Positions 11,790 through 64,000 of a stretch of DNA of 64,000 nt are shown one piece after another. Both the position numbers and the translations under genes were made by a program. The stretch is taken from assembly GCF_040712315.1 (NCBI RefSeq), contig NC_134013.1, positions 34,011,001 to 34,075,000 on the forward strand. Reading direction: 5' to 3'. The notes beneath the pieces were generated by a model. It worked only from the letters and a program-made list of their open reading frames with translations, searched no databases and was not told the DNA's origin. Source of the DNA: Castanea sativa (Eukaryota; Streptophyta; Magnoliopsida; Fagales; Fagaceae). The first letter of the stretch is position 1. Every line of letters starts with the position of its first letter.

Positions 11790-12802
11790 TATAGGCCAAA
11801 AATGTATTGACCCCTTATGATGAATTAACCAATTAATTATCCAAGTGAATTAATTAGATTCAATTACATGCAATGAGCGTGGTAGCACAAACAAATCACC
11901 AAATAACTAAATGCAGCGGAAATTAAATTTGACACAGTGATTTGTTTACGAATAGGGAAAACCTCAGCGACAAAAACCCTACCAGGTGATTTTAAGGTCA
12001 CCACTCCTGAGAATCCACTATTATTAAAACAAGCGGTTACAAGTAAAGGAATCCCAGTACTTTATACCAACTTACAATTCAACCCTTACCCTAATACCCA
12101 ATTGGACTTGTTCTGTAATGGCAATCTCTCCCTTGTATTGCATGGCTCCTAATACGTGACTAACCAATTGCGTGGATCCTAGTATGCGACTTCAATCACC
12201 AACTTGAAAAGGATGTTGGCTGCAAAGTTCTTCTGCCCTTCAAGAAATGAAGATTGTGAAGTTGCTGGGTCATAAAACCCTATGGCGTACAAACACATCA
12301 GCTTCTTCAAGAATTAGGGCAAACTAGGTTTCCGGTCGCACTTCTGGAATTATGCTCCTGTGCAATTGTGCTCTCAGCTGGGTAACCTGATATGACCCTT
12401 AAAATAATCCTTATATATGTTTAGGGTTGTGAGAAAAGAAAGCCCAAACACATAATCACGGATTAGATGAAAAACAATCCAAAAAAACTGAGTTTCATAA
12501 ATGTCGACGGATACCCTAGCTGTCGAGTTGTTGTTGAGCCACGGGCTAGAACAGCTCTTTAAATCTCGATAGATGCTAGCTGTCAAGATAGCTGTCGAGC
12601 TTTAATGAATAACACTTTTCACACTTTAATCTTGGACAGACTTGCATGGCTTCAATACTTGAACTTGAACTCTTGTTCCTTGAAGTATTAGACACATCCT
12701 AGATCTACCCAATTACAAGTAAAGTGTGTTTTTTCAAAGAATTAGCCAATTACATAAAATGTTGACATATGTTCTTAACATCCAATCACATATGTCCTAA
12801 CA
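11790..12802 (-). repeat. solo LTR (same family as 15250-16289)
   Basis: The 1013-bp segment aligns along its length with the LTR at 15250-16289. On the minus strand it begins TGTTAGGACATATGTG. It is flanked on both sides by the 5-bp duplication ACCAA (11785-11789 and 12803-12807), and no internal element sequence is attached, so it is a solo LTR left by LTR-LTR recombination. One base of the terminal CA-side motif is lost (TATAGG against TGATAGG on the plus strand). It sits three bases inside the MITE at 12805-13350. Confidence 0.9.
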
Positions 12803-12804
12803 AC

Positions 12805-15249: not shown

Positions 15250-16289
15250 TGATAGGCCAAGAATGTATTGATCCCTTATGATGAATTAACCAATTAATTA
15301 GCTAAGTTGATTAATTAATTAGATTAACATACAATATACGTGGCAGCACAAAAAAATCACCAACTAAAATAAAATGCAATAGAGAATAAATTTAAAATAG
15401 TGATTTGTTTATGAATGTGGAAAACCTCCAAGGCAAAAACCCCATCGGGTGATTTTAAAGTCACCACTCTCGAGAATTCACTATTATCACAACAAGCGGT
15501 TACAAGTAAAGGAATCCCAGTATCTTATACCAACCTACAATTGAACCCTTACCCCAATACCCAATTGGACTTGTTTTGTAGTGACAATCTCTCCTTTTAA
15601 TGCACGGCTCCTAATACATGACTAACCAATAGATGTGCGGATCTCAGTATGCAATTTAATCACCAACTTGAGAAATATGTTGGTTGCAAAGTTCTTCAGT
15701 TCATCAACACGATGAAGATCACGAAGTTGATCGGTCACAAAACCCAATGGCATACAAACGCAGTAGCTTCTTCAAGAGAAAGAAGAACTAGGGCAAATTA
15801 GGTTTCCAGTCACAATTTGCATGAACAACACTTTACTTCACACTTGTGTAACTATGCCACCTTTTACAGCCCTTAAAATAATCCTTATACATGTTTAGGG
15901 TTGTGAGAAAAGAAAACCTAAGCATGTATTCACAAATTAGATGAAAATCAGAACTGAAAATTTGTTTTTCATAAATCTTAATAGATAGCTTATCTATCGA
16001 GCAGCTGTCGAGTTTCAGGCTAAAACAGCTTTTTAAACCTCGATAGATACTAGTTGTTAAGATAGATACTAGTTGTCAAGATAGCTGTTGAGCTTTGAAA
16101 TCCAACACTTCATCACTTGATTCTTGGACAGACTTGCATGGCTTTAACACTTGATCTTGAATCCTGGTTCCTTGAAGTATTAAACACATCCTAAATCTAC
16201 TAAATTACAAGTAAAGTGTGTTTTGTCAAAAAGATTAGCCAATTCTAAATTGACATATGTTCCTAACATAAATCACATATGTCCTAACA
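15250..16289 (-). repeat. 3' LTR of the SIRE-like element
   Basis: A 1040-bp LTR with perfect TG and CA ends (TGATAGGCC and CCTAACA on the plus strand). It is collinear with the solo LTR at 11790-12802 but differs at many positions and small indels, so the two are not a pair from one insertion. It has transcript-leader text and TCGATAGATA-rich segments on the minus-strand U3 side. Confidence 0.88.
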
Positions 16290-16303
16290 ATCTTCCCCTT
16301 TGG
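16290..16303 (-). other. polypurine tract next to the 3' LTR
   Basis: The minus strand reads CCAAAGGGGAAGAT immediately before the LTR start TGTTAGG. A purine run abutting the 3' LTR is the plus-strand priming site of LTR elements. Confidence 0.8.
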
Positions 16304-18571: not shown

Positions 18572-18972
18572 GAAATCCATAATTCTCGACAGATTGAGAG
18601 GTGTTGAGTTTTAAACTTTGACAGATACAACTATTGAGGAGCTATCGAGAGGTGTTCACAGCAAAATGGGCTTGATGGATCGAGAAGTTATCGAGGAGAC
18701 CGAAACTTTCTCGATGGATCGAGAAGCTATTGAGATTGCGGTAAAAACAAGCTGAAGAGCTCGATAGATAGCCTAGCTATTGAGAGGTGTCTAGCAGCTG
18801 TCGAGATTGCTTAAAAACATTTTTTCAAGAAGAGAAAAACATAGATATGAATGCAATCAAGCATGCTACACAACCAAGGATCCAAAAAACATTTTAAGCT
18901 CTCAAAATCATCTCTCAACAAAAAAATGTTAAGCACATAGATCCAAAAACACACACACACACACACACACAC

Positions 18973-20836
18973 TGTTGACACCCTATTTTGCAACCCGCAT
19001 TTCACCTCACATGGAGGGTAAAAGGGTAATTTTACCTTGGAAATATGCATCTTGATTCTGGTCATTAGATCCTTAATCTCATTTTTCCAAAATGATCTTG
19101 ATGTTGTAACGATCAAATCGGCTGGTCATAAGCCCTAATCGGACCACCAGATTGAAAGTTATCATCAAATCAAGTTTTAATGACTGAGATGCACTATCAC
19201 AAATTGAGTTCGACCATATGTGATTATGAACAATTGATTTCAATTAGTTATATGTATAATCAATTTGAGATCAATGACGTGTCATAATTTGATTGGTTAG
19301 GACTGCATTTTATGGTATGGTTGCACACACCTAATTAACTAGATACTTAAACATTAATTTTTCAATGAGTAATTTGTGTAATTATCTTTTAATTAGAGTA
19401 AATTTGGAATCAATTAAGGCTGAAATGGGAGTGATTGGAGCCATTTAATGTTAATTGAGAGCTAATTTGGGATCTATTAATGTTAATTGTGCTGAAACCA
19501 TTTTTCAACAAATGACCTCTGCTCACTATTTCATTGATATCTCTCAGAATATTTTGAATCTATGAATGAAGTTAATTTTTCCAGAAACTATACATCCAGG
19601 GCTTCAGTTTGAGCATAAGAACGAGACAATTCCGATCAGAATTAAGTCATATATGATTTTTCAAAGTTGGCTCTACAGGCTGTTACAGCAGCTACGGGAA
19701 AACCGAATTTTGGCTTGCTCCTCACTCCTACAAATCTCTACGTTTAATACTCCAGATTTTTCCTAATGCTAAAATGAGGTCTAGGTTCATGATTACTTGT
19801 CAACCCTCATTAATGGCCTTCCATTCATATTTCCTCCACCACTACTATATAAAGCCCCTTCTCATTCATTTTAGGACACACAGAAAAACCCCCTCTCTTC
19901 TCCTCTCTTGAGTTCTAGGAAGTTGAATAGTCTTGTCATATCTTAGTCTTCTTGAGACTCAAGGTATTGAGTGAGACTCACTCTTCCTTTTCTAACTCTT
20001 CTTTTCCTCCACCCTTAGGACCTTCCTCAAGAGTCTCCTCATCCACCATATGGATCTTGCATGAAGGTATAATCCCTTTCTCTAATTGTTTTTTTTGTGT
20101 TGCCATGATGAGAGTTTAAGATTAAAGCATGATAGTAATCATTTAAATTCCCTTGAATATGTTTGAATGTTCTTAATTGTTCTTATATGTTCTTATATGT
20201 TCTTCACATGTTCTTATTTGTTCATCACATGTTCATGCATAACACTAGTTTTAATCTTAAATCCACATCAAAAATATGAAAAATATGTTTGTTTCATAAT
20301 TCTTTCAAATCCTTGAATCTAGGATATCACCATGCACACACATTAAATTCAACATCCAAATTGATTGACATATTGGATGATGTGATATGAATGTTGACCA
20401 CCATAGTTTAGAAGACCGGTTTCACCGGACAAGGTGGGTGCCTAACACCTTCCCACCTTGTAACATAGCCTCTGAACTTAGATCAAGGGTTAGTAGATCA
20501 AATGCTTATCCATGTAATTTTCAATTTTTAGATTGTAAGTAGGAAACAAAGCCATGTACTTTATCTTAGATTGTATCTAGGACCAAAGCCATGTAATTTC
20601 CTATTATCAATGTAAATTCAATTGAAAATTAATAATATGAGAAATTTTTCAATTTTGGTTTTCTTATTTTTTCAATAATTAAATAAGTGGCGACTCCATT
20701 GTAAAACCTTTAATCTAAAGGGGAAAATATAATCAGTCAAATCTCCATTTTGAGAGGCAATAACACGACTCCACCCATTCAATGGGTTTGACCCAACACT
20801 CTATAAAAAAAGGGGCCGGGGGTGCAGTCTCTCACA
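18973..20836 (+). repeat. 5' LTR of the Ogre-like element
   Basis: Direct repeat of 26196-28037. A TATA box (TATATAAAG, 19846-19854) is followed by AGCCCCTTCTCATTC, the likely transcript start region. Against the right LTR it carries a 16-bp extra segment near 19357 and scattered substitutions, so the insertion is not very recent. Near 20693 the LTR itself contains GTGGCGACTCCA, the same core as the primer site that follows the LTR. Confidence 0.93.
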
Positions 20837-20837
20837 G

Positions 20838-20855
20838 TGGCGACTCCACTGGGGA
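20838..20855 (+). other. primer-binding-site-like sequence
   Basis: TGGCGACTCCACTGGGGA lies one base after the LTR end. Primer sites of this type are used by Ogre/Tat elements; which tRNA pairs with it was not checked. Confidence 0.75.
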
Positions 20856-20913
20856 TATTGAGGGCTAAACTTCAATTAGGTTATGGTGGCCAACCATGTC
20901 ATTGTTTGTTTAT

Positions 20914-20918
<5 letters not shown>

Positions 20919-20964
<46 letters not shown>
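20919..20964. repeat. (TA)n microsatellite
   Basis: About 23 TA units within the interior of the Ogre-like element. Confidence 0.95.
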
Positions 20965-20968
<4 letters not shown>

Positions 20969-21761
20969 GTCTAATATGTCATTATATTGCATGTCATGCA
21001 TCATTTGCTTGAATGAAATTTATTTTATTTGTGTGCTAGCCCGGAAGCTCGGTATTATTAGCCGTGGATTGTGGTCTTCCTGAGACTCACATACCTAGCG
21101 GTGAACCTACCACCCACCGCTACAAGGATCATCATGGTTATGCCATGGTGGTTCATAGGGACAAACTATACCATTCGGACCAATGCGGCGCTCCTGGTGT
21201 CATAAGTTGGGAGGTACGACGTCCTAGCTTGTGGGAACCTTTAACCTACCTTCTACCCATTTTGTAAAGGCCCATAGAACCTACCTTTAGGTCGGTCCAT
21301 GTAAATTGCATTGCATTATGCATGTGTTTGGCCATTGTTTGAACCATGATGAGCCCAAGTCCAATGCTTGAGCCCATCATAATTGTTTGAACCTTGTATG
21401 TTATGAATGAACTGAAGCCCCAAAACCTATGATTGAATTCTACTTGGCATGGAAGCCCAAAATTGTTTCTTGAATGAGTCTAAGCCCAACATTTGAGCCC
21501 ATTGAAGGTGTATAGACATGGTCAACATCAAAGGCCAAAAGCTCATAAGGTTCAAGCCTTCCAAGTGTAAGCCCAAGCCATTTCATCATAATTAAGGTTC
21601 AAGCATACAAAGTCTCAAGCATCCTAAATGGACCAAGAAGAAGCAAGCGGCCCAACTTTGCCTCACTACACATCTGGTTTGCAACATCATGGTTAAGCTT
21701 AAAGTATTCCATGTTTCTATGTTTCTTTGAATTCTAAAAATCCATTTGATGTACTTTGTTC

Positions 21762-21763
<2 letters not shown>

Positions 21764-21828
<65 letters not shown>
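21764..21828. repeat. (TA)n microsatellite
   Basis: About 32 TA units within the interior of the Ogre-like element. Confidence 0.95.
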
Positions 21829-21830
<2 letters not shown>

Positions 21831-24411
21831 AAATTTCAAAAAAAAAATCAAGATTCCCAAATCTTTCAAAAAAGAAGAAAAAGAAAAAGTTTCAAGTGAG
21901 AAAGTGTTTGGACTAGGGGCATTAGGCCTTTGAGTCATTTAAAAAAACAAAAATCTTTGAACTAGGGCCATTGAACTTCCTAGTGACTTTTTCAAAAAGA
22001 TCCAATTTTTTTTTTCTTTCAAGATTAGAAAAAAAAAAGTTTCCTTTTCAAAATGGTACATGAGGATCCCATGGACAAACCATTTTCTAAATCTTAATGT
22101 TTAAAGGCTTGAGCATTCTACTTGTACTAAGGAATGATTAATTTCATTTGATCCATGTAAAGACTTTTGCTACTTGACTTAGAATATAAGAAGAAATGGT
22201 CTTAAAAGGCAATCAAAAAGAATCCCATCCATCGGAAATTCTTAAGAATCCATGTACTCGATCCAATTTTCAAAGGTCTTTTGTTTCACAACATTAGAGC
22301 ATTCATACTTTTTCCTTTAAGATGAATTTATTAAAAGAGCTTAGGTCACTGTGCCTACAAGCAAGCATTACTAGGGATAGGAGGCCATCTTTGGTTAACC
22401 AAATTATTTCCTCTTACCTAGAATGTTCATTATCCATTGCTAGCCCATTTGAGCCTTCAAACATTTAGCCTTTTTTTTGCTTGAACCCACTAAAATCTAA
22501 ACCTAGGGTGGGAAAAATCAAGATATGCATACTTAAATCTCATGTTGAAGAGGACTTAACCTGGTAGCTTTGAAGCTAATTGATAAATCTCCCCTAGAAG
22601 ACATGAAAGACAAGTGGAGAATTCATTAGGCTAAAGACAAGAGATCATCAAAGAAAAAAAAGGTTTCACACAATCAAGGAAAAAGAAATGAAATTCTAGT
22701 GTGCATCAAGTTCGAAGAGCTTAGAATTCATCATGCCAAGAGGAATACAAGGTTCATCCAAAAGAGAGTTCATCAAGGAAAAGATTCATCAAGCACAAAA
22801 AAGTGCAAGTGCATTGAGGAAGAAAGAAGTCTAGAGAGTGCCTCAAAAATGACCAAAAATCATTGAGTTGAGAAAAAGAAGGCAAAAGGTCCCCAAAAGT
22901 TCATTCAATCAAAAAAAAAAAAAAAAAAAAAACTGCTAGGTTGAAAACTCAAAAGGGCAATCTAGGCAAAAGTTAGGGCAAAAAAAAAAAAAAAAGAAAG
23001 CCCGCTAGGCTGAAAACCCAAAAGGGCAGTCTGGGCAAAAGTTAGGGCCAAAGAAAAGAAGAAGAAGAAAAGAAAAAATTGGAGAATCCTACCAAGTTGG
23101 AAACTTGAGGATGCAACCTAAAAAGGGAAGATTTTTACAAGATGAAAGTCTAGAGTTATGATTCAAGAGGAATGAGCATAAAACCAAATGTTGATACAAG
23201 TGACCAATGAAGACTAGTGAGAAGATGATAAAGAAGAAATGGAGAAACTCCTCCAATACTTGATTTTTGAGTAATGCATATTTGGGGGAAACATCATTGG
23301 GAATTTTGAACCTTTTATATCTTTCATTTCATAACCCAAACCCGGCCTACATTACAACCCATGAATAAGACCTCCTTGAAGTCTTGCTATTTGTAGGCGC
23401 ATCTTAAACTTTAATAATATTTTCTCTTGAATTAAAAAGGAAAAATGCTTAAAATTGTCAAACTCCACAGGATGATATGTCCAAGGAAAAAATTTCTCAA
23501 ATTCTCAAATCCTCAAAATAACTCAAAAGGACTTCCAAAATTGGAGCACTCTCCTTGTTTGCACCCAACAATGTGATTCATAAATATAATTACATTTCAT
23601 TTCTTGATTGCCTTTGGAGACTTGATCTGACGATGTTCCAAAGGAAGAAGCAAATTTGACTACATGAGTTTAATGATCTTGATCCTTCCTAATTAAAGAG
23701 ATTTGTTTGATTCTTAAACACTTTGATTTGCCAAAATATTTGTTCAAAGGATCACCTCTTGTTCACAAAAAAAAAAGAGAGAGAGAGAGAGAAGAAGAAA
23801 GAAAGAGAAATCTCATTTCCACAAAAAAAAAAACATTCTTTTTCAAAATTCAGTGCTTCTTGAACTATGTCTTGACCTGATCCTCTATGAGAGAGATACG
23901 TAGGTAGCCTTGCAGAGGCCCGGTCCCAATCACCCAAACAACCATAAAAAACAAAGTCAAAACAATGTGACAAAATTGTTTGGGTGCATGTTAGGTTAAG
24001 CCCATTTATTTGCATTAAGCATGTTTAAACTTGGAGCATTGGCCTATTTATATTGAGTGCAAATATGTTCTTCTTGTATGGAAGTATGTTTTCATTTGAG
24101 GCATTAATCCATTTGTTTGCAAGCATGTCCACACTAAGGATATAGGCAAAAAATGTTTTCATGATAATTGGTTTTTAATAAGCTAGAGAAAGAAAACCTT
24201 TTTGCAGGAACCAAGGATGGCGAACCATGATCTTCTTTCAAGTTCTCCAATGGTCACAACATCAAATGAATTCAGCTTCAATCTAAGCATGGAATATGCC
24301 CCAAACTAGGGGCATTGGGAATAAAAGTGAAGGATCCTTTATCTCATTCAACACAAGTTATCTCAGATATGCACCCTCATATAGCTAGATAATAGCATGA
24401 CTTATACCATG

Positions 24412-25460
24412 TAGGATCGACAATAGCTCTTCTACCTTCAAGGGATCGACCTTAGTTCTCCCGAAACCCATAGGATCGACCTTAGTTCTCCTATACACTG
24501 TAGGATCGACAGTAGCTTTCCTACCTTCAAGGGATCGACCTTAGTTCTCCCGAAACCCATAGGATCGACCTTAGTTCTCCTATACAATGTAGGATCAATA
24601 GTAGCTCTCCTACCTTCAAGGGATCGACCTTAGTTCTCCCAAAACCCATAGGATCGACCTTAGTTCTCCTATGCACTATAGGATCGACAGTAGCTCTCCT
24701 ACATTTAAGGGATCGACCTTAGTTCTCCCAAAACCCATAGGATCGATCTTAGCTCTCCTATACGTTGTATGATCGACAGTAGCTCTCCTACATTCAAGGG
24801 ATCGACCTTAGTTCTCCTGAAACTCATAGGATTGACCTTAGTTCTCCTATGCATTGTAGGATCGACAGTAGCTCTCCTACATTCAAGGGATTGACCTTAG
24901 TTCTCCCGAAACCCATAGGATCAACCTTAGTTCTCCTATGCACTGTAGGATCGACAGTAGCTCTCCTACAGTCAAGGGATCGACCTTAGTTCTCCCGAAA
25001 CTTATAGGATTGACTTTAGCTCTCCTATACATTGTAGGATCAACAGTAGCTCTCCTACCTTTAAGAGATCGACTTTAGTTCTCCCAAAACCCATAGGATC
25101 GATCTTAGCTCTCCTATACACTGTAGGATCGACAGTAGCTCTCCTACATTCAAGGGATCGACTTTAGTTTTCCTGAAACTTATAGGATCGACTTTAGCTC
25201 TCCTATACACTATAGGATCGATAGTAGCTCTCCAACCTTTAAGGGATCGACTTTAGTTCTCCCAAAACTCATAGGATCAATCTTAGCTCTCCTATACACT
25301 GTAGGATCGACAGTAGTCTCCTACATACAAGGGATCGACCTTAGTTCTCCCAAAACCTATAGGATCGACCTTAGTTCTCCTATACAATGTGGGATCGACA
25401 GTAGATCTTCTACCTTTAAGGGATCGACCATAGTTCTCCCAAAACCCATAGGATTGAATT
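24412..25460. repeat. 89-bp higher-order tandem array, about 12 copies
   Basis: TAGGATCGACAGTAGCTCTC-type units recur at 24412, 24501 and 24590, an exact 89-bp step that continues to about 25450. Each unit is itself three related subunits of 29, 30 and 30 bp, each starting GGATCGA and ending in a CTCC pyrimidine tract, so the array is a trimer-of-30-mers. The copies differ by scattered single bases. It lies upstream of the 3' LTR, where Ogre-group elements carry hypervariable repeats. Confidence 0.93.
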
Positions 25461-25855
25461 TTCCATGGACCTTTGGGAAGCACGTCCAAAATTCAATTCC
25501 TTCGGAACTTTGGGAAGCACGTCCAAAATTCAAATCCATTGGACCTTTGGGAAGCACGTCCAAATCCAATTTCAATGGACCTCTGGGAAGCACGTCCAAA
25601 ATTCAATTTCATTGGACCTCTAGGAAGCACGTCCAAACTACAATCCATCGGACCTCTGGGAAGCATGTCCAAACTTCAAATCCATCTGACCTCTGGAAAG
25701 CACGTCCAAAATTCAATCCATCAGACCTCTGGGAAGCACGTCCAAATCCATTGGACCTCTGGGAAGCACGTCCAAACTTCAATTCCATCGGACCGCTGGG
25801 AAAAATGTCCAAACTTCAATCCATCGGACCTCTGGGAAGCATGTCCAAAATTCAA
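25461..25855. repeat. tandem array of about 37-bp units, about 11 copies
   Basis: The core GGACCTCTGGGAAGCACGTCC recurs at steps of 37, 37 and 36 bp, with a few shorter units (about 28-34 bp). The spacer varies (AAAATTCAATTCCATC and shorter forms). It directly follows the 89-bp array but is unrelated in sequence. Several frames stay open through it only because the unit lacks stop words. Confidence 0.9.
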
Positions 25856-26195
25856 GATCACGACTGAAATCCTCATTTTGTCGTGACCACTAGTAAGCAT
25901 GTCTTCTACTCATTTTTTTCAAAAAAAAAAAAAAAACAAAAAAAAAAAAAACAAAAAAACAAATAACAGAAAAAATGCTGCATGTATGAACTACGTTTGG
26001 ACCTGATCCTCTCACTAAGAGGTGCGTAGGCAATCTCCCCGGAGATTCGGTGCACATTTTGATCCACTACATGATGGTTTGCATTCTTATCTACATGCAT
26101 CATACATTCACCACGGTTAAATGCCGATTGCAAAGTTAGGTGTCTCTTTCATACATTGACATTCGCTTTTCTAGCTCTACCAATGAGGAGCATTC
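25856..26195. other. short non-coding spacer before the 3' LTR
   Basis: It has A-runs at 25918-25970, a TGCGTAGGCAATCTCC word near 26023 and a purine-rich GAGGAGCA just before the LTR (26186-26193) that could be the polypurine tract. Confidence 0.5.
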
Positions 26196-28037
26196 TGTTG
26201 GCACCCCATTTTGCAACCCGCATTTAACCTCACATGGAGGGTAAAAGGGTAATTTTACCTTAGAAATATGCATCTTGATTCCGGTCATTAGATCCTTAAT
26301 CTCATTTCGCCAAAATGATCTTGATGTTGTAACGATCAAATCGGCTGGTCATAAGCCCTAATCGGACCACCAGATTGAAAGTTATCATCAAATCAAGTTT
26401 TAACGACTGAGATGCACTATCACAAATTGAGTCCGACCATATGTGATTATGAACAATTGATTTCAATTGGTTATATGTATAATCAATTTGAGATCAATGA
26501 CGTGTCATAATTTGATTGGTTAGGACTGCATTTTATGGTATGGTTGCACACACCTAATTAACTAGATACTTAAACATTAATTGTGTAATTATCTTTTAAT
26601 TAGAGTAAATTTGGAATCAATTAAGGCTGAAATGGGAGTGATTGGAGCCATTTAATGTTAATTGAGAGCTAATTTGGGATCTATTAATGTTAATTGTGCT
26701 GAAATCATTTTCTAACAAATGACCTCTTCTTACTATTTCATCGATATCTCTCAGAATATTTCGAATCTGTGAATGAGGTTAATTTTTTCAGAAACTAGAC
26801 ATCCAAGGCTTCAATTTGAGCATAATAACGAGACAATTCCGATCAGAATTGAGTTAGATATGATTTTTCGAAGTTGGCTCTACAGGCTGTTACAGCAGCT
26901 ACGGGAAAACCGAATTTTGGCTTGCTCCTCACTCCTACAAATCTCTACATTTAATACTTCAGATTTTCCCCAAGGCTAAAATGAGGTCTAGGTTCATGAT
27001 TCCTCGTCAACCCTCATTAATGGTCTTCCATTCATATTTCCTCCACCACTACTATATAAACCCTCTTTTCCTTTATTCCAGAACACACAAAAAAACCCCA
27101 TCTCTTCTCCTCTCTTGAGTTCTAGGAAGTTGAGTAGTCTTGTCATATCTTGGTCTTCTTGAGACTCAAGGTATTGAGTGAGACTCACTCTTCCTCTTCT
27201 AACTCTTCTTTTCCTCCACCCTTAGAACCTCCCTCAAGAGTCTCCTCATCCACCATATGGATCTTGCATGAAGGTATAATCCCTTTCCCTAATTGTTTTT
27301 TTTTTTTTTGTTGCCATGATGAGAGTTTAAGATTAAAGCATGATAGTAATCATTTAAATTCCCTTGAATATGTTTGAATGTTCTTAATTGTTCTTATATG
27401 TTCTTCACATGTTCTTATTTGTTCATCACATGTTCATGCATAACACTAGTTTTAATCTTAAATCCACATCAAAAATATGAAAAATATGTCTGTTTCATAA
27501 TTCTCTCAAATCCTTGAATCTAGGATATCACCATGCACACACATTAAATTCAATATCCAAATTGATTGACATGTTGGATGATGTGATATGAATGTTGGCC
27601 ACCATAGTCTAAAAGACCGGTTTCATCGGGCAAGGTGGGTGCCTAACACTTTCCCACCTTGTAACATAGCCTCCGAACTTAGATCAAGGGTTAGTAGATC
27701 AAATGCTTATCCATGTAATTTTCAATTTTTAGATTGTAAGTAGGAAACAAAGCCATGTACTTTATCTTAGATTGTATCTAGGACCAAAGCCATGTAATTT
27801 CCTATTATCAATGTAAATTCAATTGAAAATTAATAATATGAGAAATTTTTCAATTTTGGTTTTCATATTTTTTCAATAATTAAATAAGTGGCGACTTCAT
27901 TGTAAAACCCTTAATCTAAAGCGGAAAATATAATCAGTCGAATCTCCATTTTGAGAGGCAATAACACGACTCCACCCATTCAATGGGTTTGGCCTAACAC
28001 TCTATAAAAAAACGGGCCAGGGGCGCAGTCTCTCACA
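26196..28037 (+). repeat. 3' LTR of the Ogre-like element
   Basis: Direct repeat of 18973-20836 with the same ends, a TATA box at 27052-27059 and a 16-bp deletion relative to the left copy. The TSD CACAC follows directly at 28038-28042. Confidence 0.93.
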
Positions 28038-28250: not shown

Positions 28251-30677
28251 GATTTGTGTTAAAAACACAAGAGCTGTTCATACCTCAAATTAATAGATTA
28301 CTGCTCGGTTGATTTTACTCTAACTTAAACTAAGTGCGGAATAAAGTAAATGCGATTGTACAAGTAATAAAACTACTCTAAGCCATATTCATTAAATCAC
28401 AGTAGTAAAATGAAAGCTAAAAGAGGAGGGAAGAGAAATGCAAACATTAGATAACACGCCGATGTGTTATCTAAGAGTAAACCAAAGAACTTGGCGAAAA
28501 ACTTCTCCGTCGCCCTTCAAGCGGTAAATCAATCCACTAGACAATAAGTTGGGATATACGAATAGCAAGAGACCCTTCAAGCCTAATCTACCCTAAGCCC
28601 TTCAAGCGCTTACTCCAATAAGGCTTCTCGGAACCATGTCTTGTCTAGCTTTCCAGATCCTGCAATGCGCCCGATTACATCTGCCAAAGCTTGACTTCTT
28701 CCAATGCTTCCCAGCAGCACCAAAACCTCACATGACACTCAAAATGGGTGTGGTAAGTGTTTGGACTATCAACCTTTTAAGGATTTGGATATGGAGAGGT
28801 AGCAGTTGAGACCACAATGGATTGTGTAGATGATTGTGGGTATGACAATCTCTATCTCTCAGGGGTTATGGCTAGGGTTTTCTTGTGTTTGATTTTCTAG
28901 GTTTGTGCTTGAAATTTTTGGGTTTGTGTTAATTTTCTGGGTTTGTATTCTTTGGATTTTGAAAATTTGGGTGCTCAATCTGGGTTTTTTCTCACATCTC
29001 ACATTAGATTTTTAAAAAATATTTTTTTTAACTAATCTATGGTATTTTTGGGCTTTGGCTAATCGTGTATGTTTCGGCTAATATTGTGTTTGGTTGTCAA
29101 CAAAACAATGACTGGGTCTGTGTTCTTGTCTGTTCTTACTCAAAATAAAACTAGATCTCAATTTATATTATTTTTGGTTTTTATTTTTGTTTTTTCCTTT
29201 ATTTCATTTAGTTAAAATTCGTAAATTAATTTTTTTGTTTTTAAAAGATGACGTGGCATTTTTAAAATGCTAAATAATATATTATATTATTATTTTAATG
29301 CTGACGTCAGCATTTAGTATGCTAGCGATGCACTCCGTCTGCCACTTAGGACTTTGCCGTTAGGGCACTGACAGAAAGGACTAAAATAGATGGCGTTTTT
29401 CTAAATAGGGACTAAAAACAGTGAAAATAAAAGATAGAAATCAAAGTGAGAATCGCGTGAAAATATAAGGACGAAAATGTGGTTTTCGCCAATAAAAAAT
29501 GAAAACTATCACACTTGGCTCTAACGATTACCTCTAACTGCCTAGACAAACATGATCGACCATCAAATCAATAATGGGGCTTCTTTTTGAACCTATCATA
29601 TCAATCTGACTGGTAATGGTTTGTAACACTGGAAGTCATAAGGATTCTAAAGGGCTGTTAATTTGGTATAGGAGTTTAAATACATGTTTTCAGTTTTCAA
29701 ATAATATTACACGTATTTTCAAAAAATACAAACAACGTTATTAAAAGAAACCAAATGGTCCTTAAGTTTGGCTGCCTCATATTAACCGGAAAAAATGCAA
29801 TTTTTTTTCCTTAAATCAATGCCCTTGAAGTATTGTTAATAATAAAAAAAAAAACCATAAAAAAAGCGACCATGAGCACGATCATGTGAATTTTCTTTCT
29901 CTCAAAGTTTATTTATTTATTTTTGGTTAACATATCATTAATTCAATGCATCTGAAAATATTAGGTGGAGTAATTAGAAAAGTTAAAAAGGAGATTAGGT
30001 ATAACTATAAGAAGACAAGGAGAGAACATCCATGAGTTAATACCTGTCGTCTGACATCCTTGCTCGGGAGTAGGTAGCATAGCTGTTATGGCTCTTTAAT
30101 TATGTATTTACTATCATCTTCATCTACACTCAACATTACTCTATTGCCCTCAGGATTGACTCATACTCTCTCTCTCTCTCATATAGTCATATCATTTTAA
30201 TTTCCACTTGTATAAAAACTATGATCTTTTAATGGAGAATGATCTAAAATTAATAGTGAAGTTGGTGTGCCCTTCTGCTTATGAAACAAGCACAACATTG
30301 CCTTGGCCTCAACCCCAACAACTGTGAACAGTATTAGCGAAACCACAGATTAGACAAAACGAGTCTATGTCCATAAAATATAAAAATGTCCATAAAATAT
30401 AAAAATGCTCTTGATTTTGAAAGCAATATAAAAAAAAAAGTCATATTCCTGGATCAGAATGGATTTAGGTTGCTTAATTAATTAGTTGGAATATATATAT
30501 AGCATTAGCAGGTGGAGAAATTGCGTTGGATGGAGGTGATGATCCCCAAACGTGGATGGCAGTTCTCTTAATGGTAATCACATACTTTAGTCTTGTATGA
30601 GTCTGCCAATAATTATGTAACAATCCAAAAGATTGTTCTGGTTTTCTTTTTTAAGGCAAACTTACTCCTATTGGAAA
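28251..30677. other. gene-free stretch with repeat-like remnants
   Basis: No open frame with recognisable content. 28260-28700 looks like a fragment of a minus-strand LTR tail (CCCTTCAAGCGGTAAATC and similar words, three CCCTTCAAGC copies). 29220-29500 has a palindrome-like TTTAAAATGCTAAATAATAT with AATGCTGACGTCAGCATT and the phrase GGACTAAAAACAGTGAAAAT, typical of dispersed plant repeats. A short CT run lies at 30170-30181. Confidence 0.45.
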
Positions 30678-31857: not shown

Positions 31858-32038
31858 GGTCAAACAGGAAATAATCAAACCATAACATAAAACTAGAACA
31901 TGTGCCTTGGTCAAAGTGAACAACCCATGCCACTGCCATGCATGCGTGGTGTAATAGAATATAGAAGACAGATAGGAGGATAACATTGTACTTTCGCCCA
32001 AGCGGAAGAACATAGTACATTTAAGAGCAAAGTTGACT
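31858..32038 (+). promoter_or_regulatory. three W-boxes upstream of the PROPEP gene
   Basis: WRKY-factor sites TTGAC(C/T): GGTCAA at 31858-31863 and 31909-31914 (reverse orientation) and TTGACT at 32033-32038, that is about 266, 215 and 91 bases before the start codon. PROPEP genes are known to be wound- and elicitor-induced, and WRKY factors are known to act on some of them, so the cluster is plausible. The motif is short and chance hits are possible. Confidence 0.5.
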
Positions 32039-32123: not shown

Positions 32124-32438
32124 ATGGAGTCAACATCATCATCATCAGCAGCAGCTAAGGACGTCAACAAAGAAACAGTTGTGTACTCTGCCTACAATCC
32201 ATGCCATGTTCTTGAAGAAGCTCTAAGGGCTATTTTGAAGTGTTTGGGTGTTGATACTAAAGAACAAGAGGAATCTTCAAGTTCAGACCAAAAAGATGAG
32301 AACATCAATGGAACAAATACCCAAGACCCTTCTTCAACCACTGAAGAGGTTTCAGAAATTCCCTCATCAACGGACCCTGATCCTCCATCTTCAACAACAG
32401 ACCCTGAAGCTGATCCTCCTTCAAGCACAGCAACCACT

Positions 32439-32481
<43 letters not shown>

Positions 32482-32887
32482 TCTTCTCTTTCTTTTCAGG
32501 GGCTTTAATTGTTTCAAATCTAATAGTATTCACACTCTTTCACATGTAAAATTTAGATTCTTGGTGTGAAAGTGTAAACAATTTTATATGAAACATCTCA
32601 CATAATTAAGAGACTGTAAAATAATAAGAATAAAAACTGTTACAGACACCCTATTAAATACTCAATTTTTTATATTTAAATCCTATTTTCAACTTACGAT
32701 TTTAATTAAAAAAATTAAGTGTAACTTAGTGTGGGTAACAAACACTATCCAAACAATAATTAGCCTTTATTTTAAGAATATTGGTTTAATGTGTCTGTAT
32801 GTGCAGGAAGTTGCAGCGAGTACAATTGCTGTGAGAGCGCCTCCAAGGCCACCATTAAGCACTGGGAGTGGTCCTCAAATTAATTAG
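32124..32887 (+). CDS. PROPEP: plant elicitor peptide precursor (PROPEP family), two exons
   Basis: Exon 1 is 32124-32438 and exon 2 is 32807-32887, joined in phase 0 (donor GTAAGT, acceptor GTGCAG), giving 131 residues. Residues about 24-43 (YNPCHVLEEALRAILKCLGV) match the conserved N-terminal helix block of PROPEPs. The middle is Ser/Pro/Glu/Asp-rich, and the last exon encodes the elicitor itself, ending PPLSTGSGPQIN. C-terminal Gly-rich text ending in Asn is the Pep signature recognised by the PEPR receptor kinases. There is no signal peptide, as in known PROPEPs, which are released on damage and cut by metacaspases after a basic residue; VRAPPR offers Arg sites. Length is within the family range (about 90-150). 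The start is the first ATG in frame. The gene has no stops or frameshifts and stands alone between repeats. Confidence 0.88.
32443..32477 (+). repeat. (CT)n run just inside the PROPEP intron
   Basis: About 17 CT units begin right after the donor GTAAGT of the 368-bp intron. Unspliced, the run reads on as a Ser-Leu stretch, which explains the apparent longer first-exon ORF. Confidence 0.9.
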
Positions 32888-33613
32888 GTTATGTTCTCCC
32901 CTCAACGTAACCTTCTTAATTTAAAAGATCGATCTGTGGGTCAAAAAGCTAGCTAGAATCTACAATGGCTACCTCCATTATTTCTCTTTATGTTTGCTTT
33001 GAATTTCCCTTTATTTGGCTTTGCTTATGTAAGATAGAGAGTGAAAAAGAGACACAGTAAGTAAAAATGTAGGAGCTGCCATCCATGGTTGTATGCATGG
33101 CTTGCAAATCTGAAACCAATAGCAAATGAATTATGTTGATTATGTAATTCTTAGTACTTGCGTTGAGATATATACTCAATAGATCTGTCATCTACGCTTG
33201 TATTGTAACTGACTAAAAACAATCCGGAAGAAATTAATTATACTAATTAAGGTTTACAACATCTTGATAGACTTGAAGCTTTTCACTGTTAAACAGTTAA
33301 AAAAAATTGCAACTAATTCTCTAATTAAAAAAGGTTGATTACTCTAATTTAAGATTTAGAGAAATATTACCAAGTCTGTTTGTTTCTACGTTAGCATTTT
33401 CTAGAAAATAAATAATTTTTCAAAAATATTTTCTAAAAAAATTATTTCATTTTCTTATATTTAGTAGCATTTTTAAAATGAGATGAAAAACTATAATTTT
33501 ACTTTCCTTATTTAGTTTGGTGTGAAATAGAATAATTTTCTAAAATTTTTTAGTGAAAAATAACACTATTTCACACAAACTAAATAAAAGAAGTTAAGAA
33601 ATAGTTTTCTTTT

Positions 33614-33924: not shown

Positions 33925-34356
33925 GGCGAAAATTGGCAAATGCCCATTTCGCACAAAAAAAAAAAAAAACAAATGCCCCATTTCCCAAACTAATTAAGGA
34001 AATGAGAAAATCGAGTTTCAAAAAAAAATTTCTAGAGCCTTATAGCAACGTTTTAAGGAGCCTATAGTGATGTTTTAAGGACCTATAGCAGCATTTTGTA
34101 ACTTGACCTCCATGAAATTGAGTTACATGCAAGTTTTTTTTTTTACCTATAACTCGATTTCATGAAGCTCGAGTTACAAAACGCCGCTATAGGTCATTAA
34201 AACGTTACTATAGGCTTCTTAAAACGTTGCTATAGGGCTTAGCTCGATTTTGAGAAAATAGAGTTTCAAAAAATAGGTATTTCCCTAATTAGTTTGGAAA
34301 ATGGGGTAACATGCTGATTTTTTTTTTCGCGAAAAGGGCAAAAGTCCATTTTGGCC
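33925..34356. mobile_element. fold-back MITE, 432 bp, TA target
   Basis: The two halves are near mirror images. Left end GGCGAAAATTGGCAAATGCC; right end, as reverse complement, GGCCAAAATGGACTTTTGCC. Inside, both arms carry two or three copies of a CCTATAGCAACGTTTTAAGG-like word, and the centre joins two GAAATTGAGTTA/TAACTCGATTTC segments. TA flanks both ends (33923-33924, 34357-34358). The RNA or DNA strand would form a long hairpin. The superfamily is not certain. Confidence 0.8.
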
Positions 34357-34391: not shown

Positions 34392-34394
34392 GTA

Positions 34395-34786
34395 GGGTTC
34401 AAGTTACACTTGATGTAACTTTAAGCAATGTTACATCACCCAATAACTTGTTATAGAATTCATATTTTGAGAATCTTACCGTTGAATTATATGTTCTATA
34501 TTTTCTTAACATGCATGCCAATTTTCATACCAATCGGATGTAATTTACCATTCAATCCATAAATTCATTTTTTATATATTATTTTAAACTACAAAAATTT
34601 GAATTTAAACAATTAATTGATGACATGGCCATTGATTATTGATCATCTTTAGATTCTGCAAGCATGAAAAATATATGAAGATAATGTAATCTAACGGTAG
34701 AATTGTCAAAATTTGCATCTAATTAAAAAATATTGAGTGGTGTAACATTATTTAAAGTTACACTAGGTGTAACTTGAACCCAACCC
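34395..34786. mobile_element. second MITE, about 50-bp inverted ends
   Basis: Left end GGGTTCAAGTTACACTTGAT continuing GTAACTTTAAGCAATGTTAC; the right end carries the same text inverted (GGGTTCAAGTTACACCTAGT, then GTAACTTTAAATAATGTTAC). TA abuts both ends (34393-34394, 34787-34788). The interior of about 290 bp has no ORF. A TCTA repeat follows at 34787-34808. Confidence 0.8.
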
Positions 34787-61600: not shown

Positions 61601-62362
61601 CAACCACATATTCTCAAAACGAAAGGGGGTTCGCCCTCTGCGAAGATTCCCACTCTCCAAAAGAATAGGAAAATGATCGGATAACACTCTAGGAAGCCTT
61701 TTTTGAGAGAAATGAGAGAAGTGATCTGCCCAAGCCGGAGAAAAGAGGAACCGATCAATTCTAGAGGCCGAGGAAGAGTTAGACCATGTGAAAAGGCCTC
61801 CCTCCAAAGGGTTATCCATTAGCCCATGAAGAGAAATAAAATCTGAAAAATCAGTCATGCAGCGGGTGAATCTTCCCGCCCCTAACCTCTCCGAAGGAAA
61901 GCGGGTGACATTGAAATCCCCTCCCAAACACCAAGGTAAATTCCACCAACTAATCAAGCCAGCCAATTCTCCTACAAATATTGACGCTCTCTATAAAAAT
62001 TAGGGCCATAGGTACCTGTGAAGGCCCACTCAAAGTGGTCACTAACGTTTTTAAACCTACACGAAATTGAGAAACACCCCACTGCTTCTTCAATTTTTTC
62101 AACCACCCTTCTATCCCACAAGAGCAGAATACCACCTAAGCTCCTCGTAACCCAAGTAAAGCCAATCTATGAAAGGACAACTCCATATACTTCTAACAAG
62201 GCCTCTTGTAATCCATTCCAGTTTTGTCTCTTGCAAACACACTATATCAGCCTTCCAAGAGCGTAAAAGATTACGAACCTTGAGTCGTGTTTTCGTGCCA
62301 TTCAGACCGCTGACAGTACAAGATATAATCGTCACATTAATTGTGAAATAAAAAGAGCCCAA
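58651..62362 (-). pseudogene. LINE ORF2: endonuclease, reverse transcriptase, zf-RVT
   Basis: The endonuclease part (62362 to 61550) has [40 protein letters not shown] and [10 protein letters not shown], the L1 apurinic-type catalytic blocks, with stops between 61966 and 62110. RT follows: [42 protein letters not shown]. The catalytic box near 60290 reads FRDD in place of the usual FADD. The thumb and connection ([40 protein letters not shown]) lead to zf-RVT ([34 protein letters not shown]). Frame breaks occur near 60200, 60600 and 61060. Confidence 0.92.
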
Positions 62363-64000
62363 TACTTACCAATATAAAAGCGCCTATAAGAGGCTGGACC
62401 ATAATTGACAGAGCTAAACAAACCCCTCAATTCCCTAATCCCTTTCCTCCCTGAGCTCTTCAATGCTTTATCAGAATGAACCTTAAAATCCCTTTGCTGT
62501 AACTCAGCTTCCACAGCCAACAGGAATTTGGTAACTGGCTCTTCCAAACCTTTGAGGGATGTCCCAAGAAAATCATCAAAGCCACTGAATTTTTCCTGAA
62601 ACCACACTGAGTACTTGCCCTTTCCCAACAAATTATCCACCAAAGTTGTTGACCCTTCAGGAATATCCCTGACACCCGTAGGTAAGGAGACGGCCAGGGG
62701 TTCAACATTGAGAGGAGCCGAAAAATCAGAGAATTGGGAAACATCCTCTGAACCAATATCTGAAACCCAATCCTCCACACTAACCTCAACCCCATTATCC
62801 AGATCAGAATTAATCTCCCTAGGTTCCGATGACTCCTCTGGAACCAACACCAACTGGTTCGACTCATTCGTTCCAACAACCGCAGCATCCGATGGCAAAG
62901 AAATAAGAATCGGGACAGCCACTCTCTTACCGTCTCGTAATTCAAGAACCCATTGCTCAGAATTACCCCATTTCCTGATGGCTTTGTCTGTGTGCTCATG
63001 GATGATCCGTTGGATGTCACGATGCAAGTCCACTTCAGTATCCGAGCACAGGGACTCATCCAAAACATTATCGGAGCACAGGGACCCAACCGCTTCATTA
63101 TCGGAACACAGGGACTCACCCCCATCATTATCGGAGCACAGGGACACCTCCACCGAGGCATCGGAGCAGCGTGGGACTCATTCACGGAGGCTTCGAAGAT
63201 ATCGCACCGAGAGACTTCTCGGTGCACGTTGGTTCCAAGCGCGATGTGCTCCGAGAAGAGACAGCACGCCGACGGCTTAGCGTAACCCGTAATTGCGCGC
63301 CGACGAAACAAGGTGGGAGCGAGGGCTTGCGAGGAGAAGAAAGCCAAGTGGGTGGGTCGAGACTTAAACACGAGGGGCTTGGAAGGTTTGGGTTTCCATT
63401 TAAAGGTACGGTTTTCGGGGTTTGGAGTGTTTTGGGTTTGGGTTTGGAGTTAGGCCCACGGGTTTGGGTTTGGAGTTAGGCAGGAAGGATGTGTTTTGGG
63501 CTTTGGAGTTAGGCCCACGGGTAGGACAGATTGCGGTGGGTTTGGGTTAGGAAAGGGCTTTGGGTTAGAGGCTTGAGATGGTAATGGGTTTGGAATATGG
63601 TTAAACAGGAGGAGCTGGGCTTAAAGAAAAGGTGGGCTTGAAGTTAGAAGCTAGGCCCATAGAAGGAACCACCTCCCTTGACATTGGACCCAGATCTCCC
63701 ACTTACCACCGGGCCCACTGGACTGGCTTAAAAGAGAGTTCCAAACTCATCCCATCATCACTTTCTTACCGAAAAGATCTTCTCTCGTCAGAGAATCCAC
63801 CTTCCCAAGACTTTCCCTCGAGAATCCCGGGTCCGAGAATTCAGATTTGCAAAGTTGGACTTTCGAGGGTCCAACATTAAATGAGTTGGATTCGCAACAC
63901 GGGATCTCGGGACGAGAGGAGGATTCGCCGCCACGACCTCGCCAGAAAGTAAGGGGTTCATTACAACAGCCTTGCTCCACAAATGGCCGCAAAGGATTTG
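62363..64000 (-). pseudogene. LINE ORF1 region, 5' end outside window
   Basis: The open part 62332-63153 encodes an acidic protein. It includes four 10-residue repeats beginning SLCSDN (63040-63153), KWGNSEQWVLELRDGKRVAV and, near its end, KYSVWFQEKFSGFDDFLG. Right of 63280 the frame is lost through G-rich text, with GTTTGGGTTTGGAGTTAGGC copies at 63434-63520, and a further short frame is readable at 63788-63982. ORF1 proteins of L1 elements bind element RNA. The usual N-terminal domain is not in the window. Confidence 0.65.

Follow-up and report, generated by a model that had tools for sequence, protein, structure and literature searches.

Within the window, by which the whole 64,000-nucleotide stretch of DNA analysed is meant, a two-exon gene was identified that is very probably an intact, protein-coding Fagaceae PROPEP, whose product would be cleaved by a metacaspase upon wounding to yield a Pep sensed via PEPR. 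The analysis delivered its gene structure, its family membership, the conservation of its tail and a second two-exon copy elsewhere in the genome. Exon 1 (32124-32438, + strand) comprises 315 nt and 105 codons, and exon 2 (32807-32887, + strand) consists of 26 codons followed by a stop; between them lies a phase-0 GT-AG intron of 368 nt on the same strand (32439-32806; GTAAGT...TGTGCAG, 71% A+T), and the spliced product has 131 residues. The first exon encodes the N-terminal conserved block, NPCHVLEEALRAILKCLG, and then an acidic Ser/Thr/Pro-rich spacer, and the second the entire Pep-like C-terminus, EVAASTIAVRAPPRPPLSTGSGPQIN, which ends in GSGPQIN. Inspection by eye found the first 25 residues to be Ser-rich and devoid of a long hydrophobic core, and no signal peptide was apparent in this way. 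The first-pass annotation had given the same coordinates, the 32438/32807 junction, the 131-residue length and the GSGPQIN end, all of which proved exact to the base.

The product matched the Pfam family PF17232, "Elicitor peptide 1-7" (Pep1_7), with 43.2 bits and an E value of 5.6e-11 (hmmscan), well above the curated cut-off of 26.2 bits. Exon 1 alone and the unspliced open reading frame scored 37.9 and 36.7 bits, respectively, and exon 2 alone (26 amino acids) had no Pfam match. None of four shuffled products matched PF17232, two of them showing weak, below-cut-off matches to unrelated families. A database search returned 20 proteins at E values up to 10, PF17232 being present in 16 of them, with relatives from Morella (59% identity), Rosa, Shorea, Gossypium, Diospyros and others. 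A profile search, in which scoring was confined to the 7984 candidates with the most shared words, yielded at least 40 proteins at E values up to 0.01 and added Theobroma, Lupinus (one protein named 'Putative elicitor peptide'), Corylus, which belongs to Fagales, Eucalyptus and others; PF17232 was found in 27 of these 40 rows, and Morella was absent from them. Among solved structures, a single match was obtained (E 0.94), to an unrelated protein.

The exon arrangement was further examined with a profile built from 12 of the 20 database hits, taken as non-oak by name or, for unnamed rows, by low identity; P0001 to P0004, P0006, P0007, P0018 and P0019 were left out as oak-like, read-through, truncated or doubtful. 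When 2807 six-frame pieces from the window were searched with it, the best hit was the exon 1 frame (E 1.8e-20), followed by the exon 2 frame (E 4.7e-6), which was matched through the last profile position; the third-ranked piece reached only E 1.2. The exon 1 match ends and the exon 2 match begins at one and the same profile position, 88. Since the spliced product was the query by which the profile relatives had been found, this result supports the join as a test that is not wholly independent. Sequence and profile thus agree that the Pep-like tail and the N-terminal part lie in separate exons, the splicing itself being predicted. Chance resemblance to PROPEPs was ruled out by the shuffles and the six-frame background. 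A second PROPEP copy within the window was also considered and rejected, as no frame besides the two exons reached E 1 in the profile search. The earlier PROPEP identification is accordingly supported by the Pfam match, homology across dicots and a C-terminus fitting Pep-like tails; it was to fall if the C-terminus failed to group with Pep sequences, a test that left it standing. The locus is a real, ordinary member of the known PROPEP family.

A (TC)n microsatellite lies in the intron directly 3' of the donor, and without splicing the exon 1 frame runs into it and gives a 141-residue open reading frame; this unspliced frame with its Ser-Leu tail, also described in the first-pass annotation, is indeed present in the window. 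The reading that it represents the real product would draw on P0002, P0003 and P0004, which are such read-through forms deposited in the protein database. However, the (TC)n-encoded tail varies in length among these three proteins, with the frame of P0003 shifting after it, whereas only few residues separate their exon 1 parts. All three are nameless and look like intronless gene calls, and it is the spliced tail that matches relatives across dicots, so that translation of the unspliced form was rejected as having practically no likelihood.

The closest relative, found among 5.8 billion proteins searched, was Quercus rubra RGQ29_010923 (P0001), a "hypothetical protein" of 131 residues with 97% identity and a precomputed PF17232 assignment. 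It shares with the window product its length and family and is continuous over the exon join used here; only four of the 131 residues differ (from Q. rubra to the window: S4T, V105T, A111T and A112I), three of them at or just past the exon join and upstream of R115. It was from this 97% match that the source tree was taken as probably an oak. For the orthologue, the existing annotation already gives a spliced model of equal length, so that it was not overlooked in that species; this qualifies the earlier remark that small PROPEP genes often escape gene finders. A near-identical red oak counterpart is thus already public. The present gene leaves knowledge of the PROPEP family unchanged; what it supplies for the study of wound-induced immunity in an oak-like tree is a clean gene model and a peptide that can be tested. 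Literature searches pairing PROPEP or elicitor peptide with oak, Quercus or Fagaceae found no paper on oak PROPEPs among those listed, and a Quercus-related mention of 'propep' was discarded, the text concerning propeptides of storage proteins.

In the window product, S123, G125 and N131 fit SxGxxxxxN, a pattern reported to be strictly conserved in each of the eight AtPeps, with S, G and N being critical in Arabidopsis (PMC4526913). The same source states the rule for Arabidopsis Peps and reports Pep motifs to vary among plant families. By pattern count, SxGxxxxxN occurs near the end of 20 of 46 database proteins (22 of 48 when the window product and its paralogue, described below, are included), and the exact GSGPQIN in 12 of the 46 (13 of 48 with the window product counted). 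A more relaxed rule, requiring within the last eight residues an N or H that follows a G at a distance of six places, recognised a tail in 38 of the 48 sequences; nine of the remaining ten look unspliced or truncated, and P0041 ends in D. In Rosaceae PROPEPs, the Pep and the N-terminal part are reported to lie in two exons (PMC5782389); a Pep in its own exon and the conserved C-terminal G and N are features shared with the window gene. The Rosaceae Pep sequence differs in being family-specific, the Rosa and Fragaria rows having G at the S position.

The window gene is not the sole PROPEP locus of the genome (716 Mb, 13 contigs), in which 14 candidates, all scored, gave three matches and hence at least three PF17232 loci: the window itself on contig C1 (34011001-34075000) and two loci about 32 kb apart on contig C2, at 32.916 and 32.884 Mb. 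The first of the latter, the apparently intact paralogue L001 (C2:32914364-32917519, exons at 1465-1671 and 1787-1891 plus stop), encodes 104 residues. Like the window gene it has two exons, the tail exon being preceded by a phase-0 intron; this intron also begins with a (TC)n stretch, GTAAATCTCTC, but measures only 115 nt. Its C-terminal end, ISSGGGPQINKASS, contains the tail ISSGGGPQIN and differs from that of the window product by a KASS extension after the Pep asparagine and by Lys-Pro in place of Arg-Ala. The other C2 locus, L003 (C2:32882277-32885423), carries around 1501-1647 a frame that resembles exon 1, has no preceding ATG and soon reaches a stop. No tail exon for it was found in L003 or in L004 to L006 (C2:32884000-32912500), and from its sequence it looks like a truncated PROPEP relic.

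For the Q. rubra orthologue, AlphaFold, given an alignment (A2) of 19 rows that included read-through forms, predicted a helix at residues 26-40, a short helix at 18-21 and no other element. Mean pLDDT was 88 across residues 31-40, the best-supported part of the helix, against 66 across 21-30, and the whole model had a mean pLDDT of 59.6 and a pTM of 0.21. A precursor that is leaderless and cytosolic, its C-terminal tail being accessible, would be in line with this prediction. The literature describes PEP precursors as lacking a signal peptide, and Propep1 as predicted to be largely unstructured and resident at the tonoplast (PMC13157962). With Arabidopsis PROPEP1/AtPep1 the window gene would share a precursor predicted to be largely unstructured, SxGxxxxxN and a basic residue placed before the Pep core (PMC4526913, PMC7206013, PMC13157962).

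Expression, cleavage, release and perception are carried over here by analogy with Arabidopsis. Translation of the spliced mRNA would give a cytosolic precursor of 131 residues that has no leader and, apart from one N-terminal helix, is disordered; upon wounding, calcium would activate a type-II metacaspase, whose cut would fall behind a basic residue, R115 being the likeliest; and the freed Pep would be sensed by a PEPR-type receptor kinase, starting or amplifying immune signalling. In Arabidopsis, AtMC4 is reported to cut Propep1 at Arg69 under calcium (PMC7206013), although not all PROPEPs are described as AtMC4 substrates in vitro and metacaspase specificity is reported to differ between PROPEPs (PMC12629630). 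The only basic residues after K57 in the window product are R115 and R119, and R115 is followed by Ala, likewise in Q. rubra and Morella. Because no basic residue lies between K57 and R115, the likely cut would yield 16 residues rather than the 23 of AtPep1. The putative peptide freed after R115, APPRPPLSTGSGPQIN, would be close in length to the 15-residue core that is reported to suffice for AtPep1 activity (PMC4526913), its own core differing from that of AtPep1 in being Pro-rich. Against a cut at R115 stand the shortness of the peptide relative to AtPep1 and the rarity of Arg-Ala at this place, which occurs in seven of the 36 database rows whose tail was recognised (any Arg: 13 of 36) and is missing in Corylus, where no Arg is found there at all. 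The proposal that in oaks the Pep is freed at Arg-Ala in exon 2 as a short proline-rich 16-mer instead of a peptide of about 23 residues, with the two copies emitting distinguishable peptides, is accordingly put forward as a tentative and rather doubtful one, its probability having been set somewhat lower because Corylus and the paralogue are without Arg-Ala.

Three W-box-like sites (TTGACY on either strand) lie in the 300 bp that precede the ATG, with starts at 31858, 31909 and 32033 (span 31858..32038). At least three such sites were present in 0.8% of the window's 300-bp stretches, these included, and as many were held by 26 of 5000 letter shuffles of the upstream stretch, figures that apply to a motif picked after the gene was seen. 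The corresponding 300 bp upstream of the ATG of paralogue L001 contain no W-box-like site. PROPEP3 is reported as a WRKY33 target, but the test in question concerned a newly found motif and not the W-box, so that the cluster is only suggestive of a possible WRKY-responsive promoter.

The surroundings of the gene contain transposon remnants on both sides. The window holds 52 stop-to-stop open reading frames of at least 100 amino acids, 20 of which were scanned against Pfam: six gave transposon-type matches above the cut-off, two below the cut-off only, and 12 had no match at E 0.001. No host gene was found among these 20 of the 52 frames, a survey that could overlook a host gene composed of small exons; the first-pass description of the locus as the only complete host gene in the window thus holds for the scanned frames. 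Neither a tRNA nor an Rfam family reaching its gathering score was detected in the window. Between the ATG and the end of the nearest LTR element found on the upstream side lie 4087 bp, and 'stranded' in the first-pass description says no more than that transposon remnants are neighbours of the gene. This LTR retroelement (18972-28037) has terminal repeats at 18972-20836 and 26195-28037 with 94.4% identity, and an 89-bp minisatellite of about 12 copies (24403-25454) lies inside it.

A recently silenced PROPEP, with an intact frame whose expression was lost through the surrounding transposons, would be in keeping with the remnants on both sides and with the truncated family relic L003 in the same genome. 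Yet neither the frame nor the splice sites are damaged, the tail retains each of its three critical residues, divergence from Q. rubra is confined to the four substitutions listed above, and some 4.1 kb separate the ATG from the nearest upstream LTR element found, all of which makes silencing very improbable and leaves an intact, protein-coding PROPEP as the preferred reading. No sign of a transposon carrying the gene was found between 28 and 37 kb for repeats of at least 40 nt, a limit below which short target-site repeats fall. One direct pair of 42 nt flanks the gene (29228-29269 and 33439-33480; 71% alike, A+T-rich); it is weak and may have arisen by chance. Nothing found makes the transposon setting of this PROPEP remarkable.

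Several further repeats were observed in the window. Downstream of the gene, two hairpin-like inverted repeats (34036-34239 and 34392-34784), with arms 86% and 74% complementary, respectively, are possibly MITE remnants. A direct repeat of about 1 kb (11791-12803 and 15252-16290; 78.5% identity) perhaps represents the terminal repeats of an old element. Finally, a 30-bp tandem repeat (63029-63195) lies within an open frame on the - strand (62332-63153) with SLCSDN-type repeats, beside LINE-like ORFs.
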